From: Clostridiales bacterium
GTDB taxonomy: Bacteria > Bacillota > Clostridia > Saccharofermentanales > Saccharofermentanaceae
Assembly (NCBI GenBank): GCA_017428155.1
Contig: JAFRRJ010000040.1
Location: forward strand, 62,001 to 126,000
Reading direction: 5' to 3'
Length of the DNA: 64,000 nucleotides
Of this stretch, positions 11,789-21,948 are shown piece after piece. The stretch's first letter is position 1. Every line of letters starts with the position of its first letter. The notes beneath the pieces are model-generated. The model searched no databases and was not told the DNA's origin. It saw nothing but the letters and a program-made list of their open reading frames with translations. Both the position numbers and the translations under genes were made by a program.

Positions 11789-12853
11789 TCAGGTGCCGGG
11801 ATAATAAAGATCAGGCCTCATAAGATCAGGGATCTTTTTGAGATAGAGTCTTCCAGATAATGCAAAATGCGGGAGCTCGATGAAGTTTGCTTTTGAAGGT
11901 GATATCAGCCTTACCATCGGATCGGCAATGATATTTTCCGCATCCTTGAGCGCTTCTTCGAGCTCCTCTTCACCATGACACTTCCTGTCACAGTCAAGAA
12001 GGAGTCCGTCTGTGATCTCGGTTGTAGCGATCACGTTATAGTCGATACCGTATTCCGTCTTGATATAAGCGGCGATGGAGCCTGATATAACCGGTTCGCC
12101 AACTATAAAGTTCAAGGACTTTTTTCTGTCGGCTTCCATATAGTCGCTTAACCGTCCGTTCCACGGAAGGCCCTTGATATAAGGTATGCCGAATTTCTTC
12201 TCCATATACCTGCATGCCGAAATGCCGGAAGATGAAACTGCCAGATTATATTCAGCTTCAGTGGCCCTGACCGCTTCTTCGAACGAGGTGTTAAGTCCCC
12301 AGTTGGAGACGGTCTCATATCCGTCTGACAGGCATATCTTGGTCGATGTGAAATCCAGAGGTGTCATGCCTATGATGTTCACACCGTTTTTTATCTTCTT
12401 CTCCGGGTTCTTCAGCATCTTTTCCGCAAAGCTCAAGAACGCTTCAGACTGGCCTTTTGAATAGTCATGCATCGCATTGGTATTGACATAGAAACAGGGC
12501 AGCCCGGTCTTTTCCTCCAGGACCCTGCATATCCCCCTGAAGTCAGTCCCGTTAAGGTACGGAAGCGGAGAATTTGCCAGAGCAATATAGAGCGGCCTCA
12601 TCCTTTGGGCTGCATCGCATATGTCATTTATGAACTTGTCATCATTTCCCGTGATGACGTCGATATCATTAAGCCCCGAAATATATATCAGGCTCTCCTT
12701 ATCAAACCATCTGGTCTCATCATGAGTATTGTATGTGGAATTGCACCCGGAGGGGTCATGTATTACTGTCATGCCGCCAAACTCATAAAGAGCGCTCGCA
12801 GCACCCGATACATCACCCGTATAGACCGGTAATATCCTGTATGTCTTCCTCAT
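11789..12853 (-). CDS. Nitrogenase component 1-like protein, NifK-type, second pair (K2)
   Basis: The 354-residue protein belongs to the nitrogenase component 1 superfamily but is much shorter than NifK (about 500). The N-terminus VYTGDVSGAASALYEFGGM ends in a single Cys at about residue 37 in the segment SGCN, in the place of the interface cluster ligand. A second segment SSGISACRYMEKKFGIPY resembles the cofactor-region strand of NifD/NifN. It is clearly paralogous to the K-like gene at 18941-19876. It is the last gene of the ten-gene operon and overlaps its D-like partner by 4 nt (ATGA). The role may be catalytic or scaffold; I cannot tell which pair does what. Confidence 0.8.
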   Translation of the reverse strand: MRKTYRILPVYTGDVSGAASALYEFGGMTVIHDPSGCNSTYNTHDETRWFDKESLIYISGLNDIDVITGNDDKFINDICDAAQRMRPLYIALANSPLPYLNGTDFRGICRVLEEKTGLPCFYVNTNAMHDYSKGQSEAFLSFAEKMLKNPEKKIKNGVNIIGMTPLDFTSTKICLSDGYETVSNWGLNTSFEEAVRATEAEYNLAVSSSGISACRYMEKKFGIPYIKGLPWNGRLSDYMEADRKKSLNFIVGEPVISGSIAAYIKTEYGIDYNVIATTEITDGLLLDCDRKCHGEEELEEALKDAENIIADPMVRLISPSKANFIELPHFALSGRLYLKKIPDLMRPDLYYPGT

Positions 12854-14148
12854 ATGCAGCTCCTGCAGCCGAGGCCCTTGCGCGGCACTATATCGCGCAT
12901 GTCTTTGCTGTTAATAAATGCATCTTCCATGAGTCTTATAAACTCACATATTCCGCTATAGCCGTAAAGCCCTCCGCCTTCGATCATGTTTACAAAATAA
13001 TCCGTTCCCTCAAACCAGGCAGCCTTCTGCCCTATGGCCAGTACTTTCTCTTTGCTCCTTACAGGTCTTCTGTCACTTACATGCATAGTCGAATGAAGGA
13101 TAATATCCGGATAATTCTTTTGCAGATAATCAAAATTCTCTTTCTCGCTTCCGTCAACAGCATCAAGATAGACTGTCTTAACATTAATTCCGTTATCAAT
13201 TAAAAACCTTGCAAGCGACAAGGGCTTGGGAACAGCTGTGTAATCGATTGCTACGGGTGTGTCTTTGATGAGATCTTTCAGCTTTCTCAGTTCCTTGGCA
13301 CAGGAATCTCTCCCGCCCTCGAAAAACTTTTCAGGTACAGATAATCCTGATTGCCTTATCTCTTCTTCTATGGTGTCAAAATCAAAGCTCAGGGGACAAT
13401 AGATATACTTACGGTCCAGCCTCTGCGTTATGGATCTCGTGGCCATCAGGCCGGCAGGATACTGGCAGATAAACAATGAGGATTCCCCTATTGAGAAATA
13501 CTCTTCAAGTGTCTTACAGTCTGCGGTATCTTTTATATTCCTGCCGTTATACTCCAGAATCTTTTTGAAGTCATTTTCAGATGCCGGCATATCGCTTCCC
13601 GCAAAAGCCACGGTATCTTCATTTACAGGCATTGACGGGATGATGTCCGACATTGCTTTTCTCAGTCTCTGGTCAGGTGTCGTGCCGCGCTTCTGCATTA
13701 CCGGATCCATGAATCCTCTTACGAAAATAACATCCGGGAAACGCTTTTCGAGCTCCTTGTAAATAAAACCTATATCACACCCCATAAACCTGTGAACACA
13801 TACCGGGAAAACGATTGCCACAGGAGGCATCTTCGGGAGTTTCTTAAGGCAGTCAGAAACACCTTCTATTGTCGTCTCCTCGATCCTCCCCGAGTGCGTC
13901 ATGTCGTCTTCTTCAAGGACTACGGATGAGAACCTTCCGAGTTCACCCATCTCGGCAGCCGTCATGACAACTCCGCGAAGACAGTTATCCGCGCAGATGT
14001 ATATCTGATGAGCCTTAGGTATCCTGAATCCGATATGCACTATATTCCATGTTCCGTGAGCGGGCGCGTTGAATTCAAGCCCGTTTGCAAACGGTTTTGG
14101 GAATACGGCATCACCGATCCTTACCTTTTCATCACTTGACGTTGGCAT
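12850..14148 (-). CDS. Nitrogenase component 1-like protein, NifD-type, second pair (D2)
   Basis: The 432-residue protein is a nitrogenase component 1 homologue. Cysteines suited to an interface Fe-S cluster are at about 52 and 56 (ICADNCLRG) and at about 117 and 124 (FPVCVHRFMGC). A further conserved Cys at about 211 (ADCKTLEEY) matches a Cys in the D-like paralogue at 19873-21198. The C-terminal GGGLYGYSG turn resembles the end of NifD/NifE proteins, and the protein ends in a CRSCI motif. The start lies inside the end of the ACT-domain gene, and the 3' end overlaps K2 by 4 nt. The function is unknown; by architecture it forms a heteromer with K2. Confidence 0.8.
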   Translation of the reverse strand: MPTSSDEKVRIGDAVFPKPFANGLEFNAPAHGTWNIVHIGFRIPKAHQIYICADNCLRGVVMTAAEMGELGRFSSVVLEEDDMTHSGRIEETTIEGVSDCLKKLPKMPPVAIVFPVCVHRFMGCDIGFIYKELEKRFPDVIFVRGFMDPVMQKRGTTPDQRLRKAMSDIIPSMPVNEDTVAFAGSDMPASENDFKKILEYNGRNIKDTADCKTLEEYFSIGESSLFICQYPAGLMATRSITQRLDRKYIYCPLSFDFDTIEEEIRQSGLSVPEKFFEGGRDSCAKELRKLKDLIKDTPVAIDYTAVPKPLSLARFLIDNGINVKTVYLDAVDGSEKENFDYLQKNYPDIILHSTMHVSDRRPVRSKEKVLAIGQKAAWFEGTDYFVNMIEGGGLYGYSGICEFIRLMEDAFINSKDMRDIVPRKGLGCRSCI

Positions 14149-14380
14149 AAGATGTTTTTACGTTTACTCCGTCAAGACGTCCTATCTTTCCCGTGATCTC
14201 ACTGATGTAATCCTGAGGTGCATTGATAGCGATCATGATGATGCTTATGTTCTTCTCACGGTAGGGCACACCCATTCTTCCGATGATATACTGTCCCGCT
14301 TCATGCAAAAGAGCATTAAGCTTTTCCACAGAATCAGGATTCTCAACTATTATCGATACAGCAGCTACTCTGGTTTCCAT
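14132..14380 (-). CDS. TM1266-type ACT-fold protein (iron-only hydrogenase system regulator family)
   Basis: The small protein (82 residues) opens METRVAAVSIIVENPDSV and has a VPYREKNISIIMIAINAP strand and a C-terminal GRLDGVNVKT strand. This is the pattern of TM1266-like ACT/ferredoxin-fold proteins, which are often encoded with the HydEFG maturases of [FeFe]-hydrogenase and named as putative regulators of that system. Here it lies between hypE and the second nitrogenase-like pair, with no hydEFG in the window. The ATG follows AAAGGAG, and the stop overlaps the next gene by 17 nt. It may sense a ligand or assist cofactor handling. Confidence 0.75.
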   Translation of the reverse strand: METRVAAVSIIVENPDSVEKLNALLHEAGQYIIGRMGVPYREKNISIIMIAINAPQDYISEITGKIGRLDGVNVKTSYANVK

Positions 14381-21198: not shown

Positions 21199-21201
21199 TA
21201 C

Positions 21202-21948
21202 TTAACCTTCCAAAAGCATTTTCGCAAGATATAAAAACCTTTGTGCCGACTCTGAATCCTTTGCACCCTCAACGACGGTCATGCCCTTGTCTTCACAGAG
21301 CGTGATGTCATCACTTCTTGGAATGACAGCAACAATTGGAGCTTTGTGCTCATCTGCAAATTCCTTTACCTTCTCATCCTCGCCGGGAACATTACGCTTG
21401 TTGAGGATCAGGCCTCGTACGTTTGCATAGCCTCTGTCTTCGAAATTCCTTACTGCCTGGCAGATATTGTTTGCAGCATAGAGCGCCATCTTCTCGCCTG
21501 ATGTCACGATCAGGACCTGCTCTGCATAACCTTCTCTTATAGGCGCTGCAAAACCGCCGCAGACAACATCGCCCAAAACGTCGTAGAGAACAACGTCCGG
21601 CTTGTATTTTTCGAAAAGTCCGAGTTCATCCAAGAGATTAAATGTCGCAATGATTCCTCTTCCCGCGCAGCCGAGACCCGGTGTGGGACCGCCTGTCTCG
21701 ATGCAGAGGACCCCTCCGAAACCTTCCTGGGAGATCTCTTTTGCAGATGCTGGTTCAACGCCGTCCTTGAGGATCTCGATAACAGGCTTTAAGGGTTTGC
21801 CGCCCAGAAGGTTGATCGTGGAATCCGCCTTGGGATCACATCCGATCTGAATTACACGCTTACCCATGCTGGCAAATGCGGCAGACAGATTCGATGTTAC
21901 TGTCGACTTGCCTATTCCGCCCTTACCGTAGATTGCGATCTTAAGCAT
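21202..21948 (-). CDS. NifH-like Fe protein (ATP-dependent reductase)
   Basis: The protein (248 residues) belongs to the NifH/BchL/ChlL/CfbC family. The P-loop GKGGIGKST is at about residues 8-16, switch and Fe-S residues are intact with Cys at about 94 (GLGCAGRG) and Cys at about 130 (DVVCGGFA), which bridge a [4Fe-4S] cluster between two subunits. It is 30-50 residues shorter than true NifH at the C-terminus, like many nitrogenase-like homologues. It should pass electrons with ATP hydrolysis to D1/K1 or D2/K2. It is the first gene of the ten-gene operon. Its ribosome binding site is buried in a terminator-like hairpin. Confidence 0.93.
   Translation of the reverse strand: MLKIAIYGKGGIGKSTVTSNLSAAFASMGKRVIQIGCDPKADSTINLLGGKPLKPVIEILKDGVEPASAKEISQEGFGGVLCIETGGPTPGLGCAGRGIIATFNLLDELGLFEKYKPDVVLYDVLGDVVCGGFAAPIREGYAEQVLIVTSGEKMALYAANNICQAVRNFEDRGYANVRGLILNKRNVPGEDEKVKEFADEHKAPIVAVIPRSDDITLCEDKGMTVVEGAKDSESAQRFLYLAKMLLEG

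Follow-up and report, generated by a model that had tools for sequence, protein, structure and literature searches.

Operon Organization and Conservation

We analysed a 64,000-nucleotide stretch of a Clostridiales genome (assembly GCA_017428155.1, contig JAFRRJ010000040.1, positions 62,001 to 126,000), referred to below as the window. It carries a ten-gene operon that combines a NifH-like protein and two pairs of nitrogenase-like subunits (D1/K1 and D2/K2) with the maturation genes hypF, hypC, hypD and hypE and a gene for a TM1266-like protein (Table 1). The ten genes share the minus strand and span exactly 11789-21948, neighbours overlapping or being separated by at most 11 bases, in agreement with the layout recorded in a first-pass annotation of this DNA, and they are likely to form a single transcript. 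Our analysis suggests that the operon is probably a HydG-free assembly line for the H-cluster of [FeFe]-hydrogenase, in which HypCDEF and two nitrogenase-like complexes replace HydG. This reading is based on the conserved gene order, on the hydF, hydE and hydA genes found beside the operon in relatives, on the absence of HydG over its cut-off and of a full NiFe large subunit, and on the intact catalytic residues of the Hyp proteins.

Gene identities were assigned with Pfam and NCBIfam profiles and their curated cut-offs. The first-pass names of HypC, HypD, HypE, HypF and the TM1266-like protein hold, since all five score over their cut-offs, while NifH, D1, K1, D2 and K2 can be placed only in the nitrogenase superfamily, as clear or weak members that score below every nitrogenase equivalog cut-off matched.

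Relatives were collected by a scan with a D1 alignment, one genome being taken per species; 454 were found and the best 80 were kept. Those with the operon include Saccharofermentans-type rumen and gut bacteria, Blautia, Roseburia faecis, Coprococcus comes, Eubacterium ramulus, Faecalicatena and Coriobacteria, and the closest ones found come mostly from animal guts. The recurring gene order is NifH-D1-K1-hypF-hypC-hypD-hypE-TM1266-(NifH2)-D2-K2. A core of seven genes (NifH, D1, hypF, hypC, hypD, hypE and D2) occurs together in 61 of the 80 loci; among the remaining 19, 17 are truncated where the contig or the fetched locus stops, and L041 and L073 are real exceptions. The gene arrangement is not due to chance, and the conservation that the first-pass annotation had proposed to look for is present. 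The TM1266-like gene is found in 50 of the 61 full-core loci, a K2 match is absent from three of them, and in L071 D2 and K2 are placed first. K1 stands as a gene of its own in 54 full-core loci and is fused to D1 in the other seven (L030, L039, L045, L049, L053, L056 and L078) as one reading frame of about 800 amino acids, which rules out a loss of K1 there and makes it likely that D1 and K1 are partners in one complex.

Table 1. Features of the operon and its surroundings (window coordinates; aa, amino acids; pLDDT, predicted local distance difference test)
Feature	Description	Length	Position	Strand	Match
NifH	NifH-like ATP-driven reductase	248 aa	21202-21948	-	PF00142, 301 bits
D1	NifE/NifD-like subunit	441 aa	19873-21198	-	PF00148, 101 bits
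K1	short NifK/N-like subunit	311 aa	18941-19876	-	PF00148, 51.7 bits
hypF	carbamoyltransferase	771 aa	16648-18963	-	TIGR00143, 746.6 bits (cut-off 466.1)
hypC	iron-carrying chaperone	70 aa	16445-16657	-	TIGR00074, 58 bits (cut-off 48)
hypD	Fe-S scaffold	351 aa	15393-16448	-	TIGR00075, 376.1 bits (cut-off 192.8)
hypE	cyanide-forming dehydratase, C-terminal PRIC	345 aa	14392-15429	-	TIGR02124, 404.4 bits (cut-off 251.6)
TM1266-like	small protein of [FeFe]-hydrogenase system		14132-14380	-	TIGR03959, 110.8 bits (cut-off 60.8)
D2	divergent nitrogenase component-1-like subunit	432 aa	12850-14148	-	predicted nitrogenase/DPOR fold, pLDDT 87.9
K2	NifN/NifE-like subunit	354 aa	11789-12853	-	PF00148, 89.8 bits
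TPP riboswitch	thiamine pyrophosphate (TPP) riboswitch		7627-7732	+	Rfam RF00059, 62.5 bits
Thiamine genes	thiM, thiE, thiD, thiC (by eye)		7745-11788	+	
PstS-like	lone phosphate-binding protein		22296-23258	-	107.7 bits (below cut-off of 206.6)

HypCDEF and the Missing NiFe-Hydrogenase

The catalytic cysteines of HypC, HypD, HypE and HypF are intact. Residue counts across relatives took in only sequences of approximately normal length; the terminal C345 of HypE is kept in 64/64, Cys2 of HypC in 60/60, and C28, C56 and C59 together with the C-terminal C302, C304, C317 and C324 of HypD in 68/68. HypD also aligns full length to the solved HypD structure 2z1d. The source genome (G000; 2.96 Mb, 98% complete) has a single hypD.

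As the first-pass annotation had stated for the region, no match to a NiFe large subunit or to HypA was found, here in the whole source genome, the only genome in which HypA was searched for. HypB and the maturation protease are not among the ten operon genes, and no genome-wide search was made for either. The large-subunit model PF00374 matched in 2 of 60 genome handles (56 distinct genomes), each time over about 70 residues only. Neither of the two patterns that had been named as contradicting the first-pass reading, namely a NiFe large subunit with HypAB always present or Hyp genes unlinked from the nitrogenase-like ones, was thus observed, HypB standing outside the comparison. Maturation of a NiFe-hydrogenase was ruled out as the role of the operon, as no full-length large subunit was matched in the genomes searched. 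The same annotation described the operon as lacking a hydrogenase, which is true of the NiFe type but not of the [FeFe] type, a gene for which is located on the same contig.

Association With [FeFe]-Hydrogenase Genes

The source genome encodes HydA, HydE and HydF. The HydA gene (PF02906) ends about 35 kb before the start of the window; its open frame of 591 amino acids keeps the H-cluster motifs, and two frames upstream of it resemble HydB and HydC of an electron-bifurcating enzyme, both observations being made by eye. The hydE and hydF genes are 3 bases apart, with hydG missing between them, and they share 80% and 85% identity, respectively, with their counterparts in G074, a species of the same genus in which the order is hydE-hydG-hydF.

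Clustering of the genes that flank the operon in relatives (45 largest clusters) showed that HydF and HydE are the two families linked with it across lineages. One cluster of ATP-binding cassette transporter type covers 12 loci from several lineages at a distance of several kb, and the other clusters comprise few or closely related loci. In 23 of the 46 loci with at least 350 bases past K2, hydF is the next gene, overlapping K2 or following it within 32 bases. Overall, hydF, hydE or hydA lies inside 31 of the 80 fetched stretches, while HydG lies inside none of the 80. L035 carries HydA-NifH-D1-K1-HypFCDE-TM1266-D2-K2-HydF-HydE on one strand, and in L132 TM1266, HydF, HydE, D2, K2, NifH, D1, K1 and hypFCDE form one run.

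Genome-wide counts of HydG, HydE, HydA and NiFe subunits in operon-bearing genomes refer to the source genome and 50 of the 80 loci, the other 30 being outside the counts. Where stated, they also take in G106 and G180, two genomes with strong D1 matches that lie outside these 51 and bring the number of distinct operon-bearing genomes to 53. G050, G119, G138 and G173 are apparently the same as G246, G256, G249 and G264, as judged from identical HydA coordinates, and were counted once. HydE was over the cut-off in 52 of the 53 genomes and a HydA domain was matched in 52 of the 53, the match in G255 being a 24-residue fragment at a contig end. HydF was over the cut-off in all seven strongly D1-positive genomes of the class sample described below. 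The HydE of the source genome scores 574.8, compared with 596.7 and 570.5 in HydG-bearing sisters; as the scores are alike with and without the operon, the substrate of HydE is probably similar, and we expect the operon to deliver the usual synthon or something very near it. In L098 and L120, which come from species of the same genus without the operon, the TM1266-like gene precedes hydE-hydG, while here it is inside the operon, as if it had moved along with the pathway.

Lack of a Detectable HydG

No HydG over the cut-off was found in the source genome or in any other of the 51 operon-bearing genomes. For comparison, a class sample of 243 genomes was evenly drawn, with HydG over the cut-off in 159 and a D1 match in eight. 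Thresholds for the class counts were E values of 1e-50 for D1, 1e-60 for HydG and 1e-40 for HydF, HydG calls over the cut-off being taken as printed; 165 of the 166 HydF calls were also over the cut-off, and the exception is most likely G011 (8.4e-41). None of the seven strongly D1-positive class genomes has HydG over the cut-off. Strong D1 matches occur in 7 of the 12 HydF-positive class genomes without HydG versus 0 of the 154 with HydG (Fisher 1.3e-9, relatedness ignored).

Contrasts within lineages carry more weight here than a Fisher value that is blind to relatedness. Within the genus of the source organism, five sampled species have D1 and lack HydG, while G074 and G207 carry HydG, both in the order hydE-hydG-hydF, but lack D1 as well as HypD. 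A further species, G223, shows two HydA-type domain matches and no D1, HypD, HydE, HydF or HydG, its [FeFe]-hydrogenase genes thus coming with no maturation set of a known kind. In family f35 two sampled genomes carry D1 without HydG over the cut-off, while nine carry HydG without D1. Seven operon-bearing genomes of Coriobacteria/Atopobiaceae also lack HydG, only operon-bearing members having been sampled there.

We also considered whether HydG might be hidden in matches below the cut-off. Eighteen of the 51 operon-bearing genomes have a match of 169-206 bits to the HydG model; three of these were scanned and all three proved to be ThiH. Matches of 44-86 bits mostly overlie matches to the HydE model, and HydE itself is over the cut-off in 50 of these 51 genomes. 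A hidden HydG was rejected on these grounds, three of the eighteen stronger matches having been scanned. ThiH was likewise rejected as a general source of CO and cyanide, most Saccharofermentans-type genomes, the source genome included, being without such a match.

The findings on HydG bear directly on the interpretation offered by the first-pass annotation, according to which the nitrogenase-like proteins receive Fe(CN)2CO made by HypCDEF and either build it into a new cofactor or reduce it. Such a role would be unrelated to [FeFe]-hydrogenase. This idea is favoured by the joint occurrence of HypCDEF and the nitrogenase-like genes in 61 loci of the 80, another 17 being cut short, and by the lack of a full NiFe large subunit. 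However, it leaves unexplained why 53 distinct genomes show no HydG, why hydF, hydE and hydA adjoin the operon in relatives and why hydG is missing from hydE-hydF, and we regard it as unlikely. In particular, a new cofactor belonging to the nitrogenase-like enzyme itself is not sustained as the end point of the iron-cyanide unit.

The Nitrogenase-Like Proteins

NifH scores 308.7 bits against TIGR01287, below the cut-off of 394.35, and D2 reaches 22.3 bits against PF00148, below the cut-off of 28.6. The BchL, BchX, CfbC, CfbD-type, BchN and BchB models were matched, all below their cut-offs, and no methylthio-alkane reductase model was among the matches. Single-chain fold searches assigned the nitrogenase component-1 fold to D1 and D2, without separating the families within it; the best match of the D2 profile in the PDB is methylthio-alkane reductase (25.3 bits).

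Cysteines are well conserved in these proteins. The cluster cysteines C94 and C130 are kept in 74/74 NifH1 sequences, C70, C71, C132 and C135 in 72/72 D1, C37 and C42 in 66/66 K1, and C37 in 54/54 K2. D2 keeps C56 and C117 in 61/61 sequences and C52 in 60/61. Its C-terminal tail (window approximately 12853-12870) has a conserved GC-x-SC motif (C428 in 56/61, C431 in 48/61), which could carry metal.

The position occupied by a cysteine in NifE, which we take to be a ligand of the iron-molybdenum cofactor (FeMo-co) in NifE and the alpha subunit, is Asp254 in D1, with Asp or Asn there in D1 sequences, and the alignment of relatives shows no conserved cysteine at the corresponding place in D2. The lack of the cofactor cysteine in D1 and D2 is in keeping with a cavity used as in DPOR and not with a FeMo-co enzyme. 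The D1 model is of moderate quality (pLDDT 76, low near the cluster loop), so no ligand geometry was taken from it. An ordinary nitrogenase or FeMo-co assembly was ruled out by the scores below the cut-offs together with the missing cofactor cysteine.

A second, more divergent NifH precedes D2 in 22 of the 61 full-core loci, e.g., L032, L038 and L057. The lineage of the window is without it, so both D/K pairs would depend on a single NifH.

A Possible HydG-Free Route to the H-Cluster

HydG, HydE and HydF have been assigned successive roles in assembly of the H-cluster: HydG forms CO and cyanide from tyrosine and yields Fe(CO)2(CN)(Cys) for HydE, which makes the diiron unit that HydF installs (PMC12752695). 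In the Hyp system, carbamoyl phosphate is the source from which HypF and HypE generate cyanide, and Fe(CN)2CO is carried by HypCD (PMC12134894).

In the route that we propose, HypF and HypE would produce cyanide from carbamoyl phosphate on the terminal cysteine of HypE, and HypCD would carry the cyanide-bearing iron. NifH would feed ATP-driven electrons to D1K1 and D2K2, which are predicted to hold Fe-S clusters at their interfaces and no FeMo-co. One D/K pair would likely supply CO (e.g., from CO2) or reduce iron-bound ligands, giving Fe(CO)2(CN) instead of Fe(CN)2CO, and the other would likely act as a scaffold or as the final reductase. The diiron unit would next be assembled by HydE and inserted into HydA by HydF. 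Genomes without HydG would in this way obtain a source of cyanide, a scaffold for iron and two low-potential reductases driven by ATP. Put in full, gut Clostridia and Coriobacteria would possess a second H-cluster pathway that joins cyanide from HypEF and iron on HypCD to two nitrogenase-like complexes, which make or install CO, taken from CO2 or from an iron-bound ligand, and so deliver Fe(CO)2CN to HydE and HydF. We give this detailed scheme an even chance of being correct, while the replacement of HydG by the operon appears probable.

A number of points weigh against the replacement of HydG. The first is a mismatch in ligands: the product of HypCD has two cyanides and one CO per iron, while the H-cluster has one cyanide and two CO. 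The nitrogenase-like pairs would therefore have to add CO or swap a cyanide, and such an addition or exchange is a prediction of our proposal. The mismatch could also be taken at face value, the operon then making the CO and cyanide of a single special [FeFe]-hydrogenase, or of an altered H-cluster with another set of diatomic ligands, and not replacing HydG like for like. HypCD does natively give two cyanides and one CO, unlike HydG (PMC12134894), but the HydA of the source genome keeps the usual H-cluster motifs, as read by eye, and the scores of HydE and HydF are those of ordinary members of their families; we consider this explanation quite unlikely.

The remaining points concern the support for HydG replacement, which is purely genomic. 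In the source genome hydF and hydE are on contig C4, away from the operon. L041 stops after hypF, with no hypC, hypD or hypE in 2.6 kb, and L073 has no D2 or K2 within approximately 4 kb after TM1266. Two operon-bearing genomes lack a partner, G257 having no HydE match and G250 no HydA match. G180, counted as being without HydG, has the one HydG match of the class sample that falls below the cut-off (6.6e-66), and G117, the eighth class genome with D1, is HydG-positive and contains HypD and a weak D1 match (206.9 bits). The independent lineages are few, and two of them offer a contrast within a genus or family. Finally, 5 of the 12 HydF-positive class genomes lacking HydG (G140, G061, G126, G195 and G240) are also without D1 and HypD; G140 (L113) has TM1266-hydE-hydF with no HydG over the cut-off and no HypD. 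These five genomes show neither route, which means that a HydG escaped detection or that there is a third solution; metagenome-assembled genomes can miss genes.

The same five genomes, lacking both HydG and D1, would suit the explanation that HydA is matured by HydE and HydF alone from traces of environmental CO and cyanide, the operon being unrelated and travelling with the hyd genes by chance. In vitro activation of about 1% by HydE and HydF without HydG, cited in PMC9431212, would also be in line with it. Nevertheless, every strong D1 match of the sample lies in a genome lacking HydG, with 0 of 154 among those positive for both HydF and HydG, and in 23 of 46 loci the operon continues directly into hydF, so that we find this explanation very improbable.

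Neighbouring Genes

The genes at 7745-11788, upstream of which the TPP riboswitch is located, converge on the operon with zero gap, the last of them ending at 11788 and K2 at 11789. On the other side, the PstS-like gene lies upstream of the operon and adjoins it in 12 close relatives.

Significance and Relation to Known Systems

HydG is taken to be the source of the CO and cyanide of the H-cluster. Blautia, Roseburia faecis, Coprococcus comes, Eubacterium ramulus, rumen lineages and Coriobacteria nevertheless have [FeFe]-hydrogenase genes without a detectable HydG. If our proposal is true, Fe(CO)2CN would be made in biology in a second way, and a nitrogenase-family enzyme would for the first time be found to build an organometallic synthon. 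It would also bear on the CO source of NiFe-hydrogenase in anaerobes; PMC12134894 calls the anaerobic CO source and the electron donor of HypD unresolved and discusses a step near -530 mV with use of ATP.

A number of studies touch on parts of this picture. In five of eight Clostridium acetogens hydG was not identified and only hypotheses were put forward (PMC9431212); this may be a different case, as most of them carry an atypical HydG-like gene. H2 was measured from gut isolates, with Dorea longicatena in a figure, in a study the main text of which gave no match for HydE, HydG or maturation (PMC12578642). Of 524 human-gut nifH clones, 444 belonged to Cluster IV, the function of which was described as largely unknown, with similarity to sequences of Ruminococcus, Coprococcus and Eubacterium (PMC4995403). 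We infer that these clones represent genes of the present operon type, and our proposal would, if true, give a function to many of the gut's orphan nifH genes of Cluster IV, which confuse surveys of nitrogen fixation.

The association itself has been reported before. NifHEN-like genes beside hydrogenase maturation genes were noted in gut Firmicutes, with two linked copies in Coprococcus catus and Dorea longicatena, and a possible role in the assembly of the active-site metallocluster was suggested (Dos Santos et al., 2012; PMC3464626). The genes of Coprococcus catus and other Firmicutes are most likely this very gene set, although the account, in the portion available, draws no link to the loss of HydG, to [FeFe]-hydrogenase or to a pathway. 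The first-pass statement that no system of this kind had been described is therefore too strong as regards the gene association. As for the replacement of HydG, the matches listed from open-licence PMC literature, bioRxiv excluded, contained no account of H-cluster assembly without HydG or of an [FeFe]-hydrogenase being served by HypCDEF.

The operon shares features with several known systems. DPOR, CfbCD and methylthio-alkane reductase resemble it in their superfamily fold, methylthio-alkane reductase being also the best PDB match of the D2 profile, while the proteins studied here score below the curated cut-offs matched and are tied to HypCDEF and HydEF genes. With the assembly of FeMo-co by NifH and NifEN it has in common an ATP-driven NifH-like protein, NifEN-like partners and two linked D/K pairs, as in nifDK-nifEN; it differs in scores below the nifH, nifE and nifD cut-offs and in the Asp or Asn that takes the place of the NifE cysteine in D1. 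HypABCDEF maturation of [NiFe]-hydrogenase is represented by HypC, HypD, HypE and HypF with their catalytic residues, but HypA was not found in the source genome, no full-length NiFe large subunit was matched, and the likely target is [FeFe]-hydrogenase. HydEFG maturation shares HydA, HydE, HydF and the TM1266-like protein with the organisms considered here; in these, no HydG scores over the cut-off and HypCDEF with two nitrogenase-like complexes is present instead, while the end product is likely the same.

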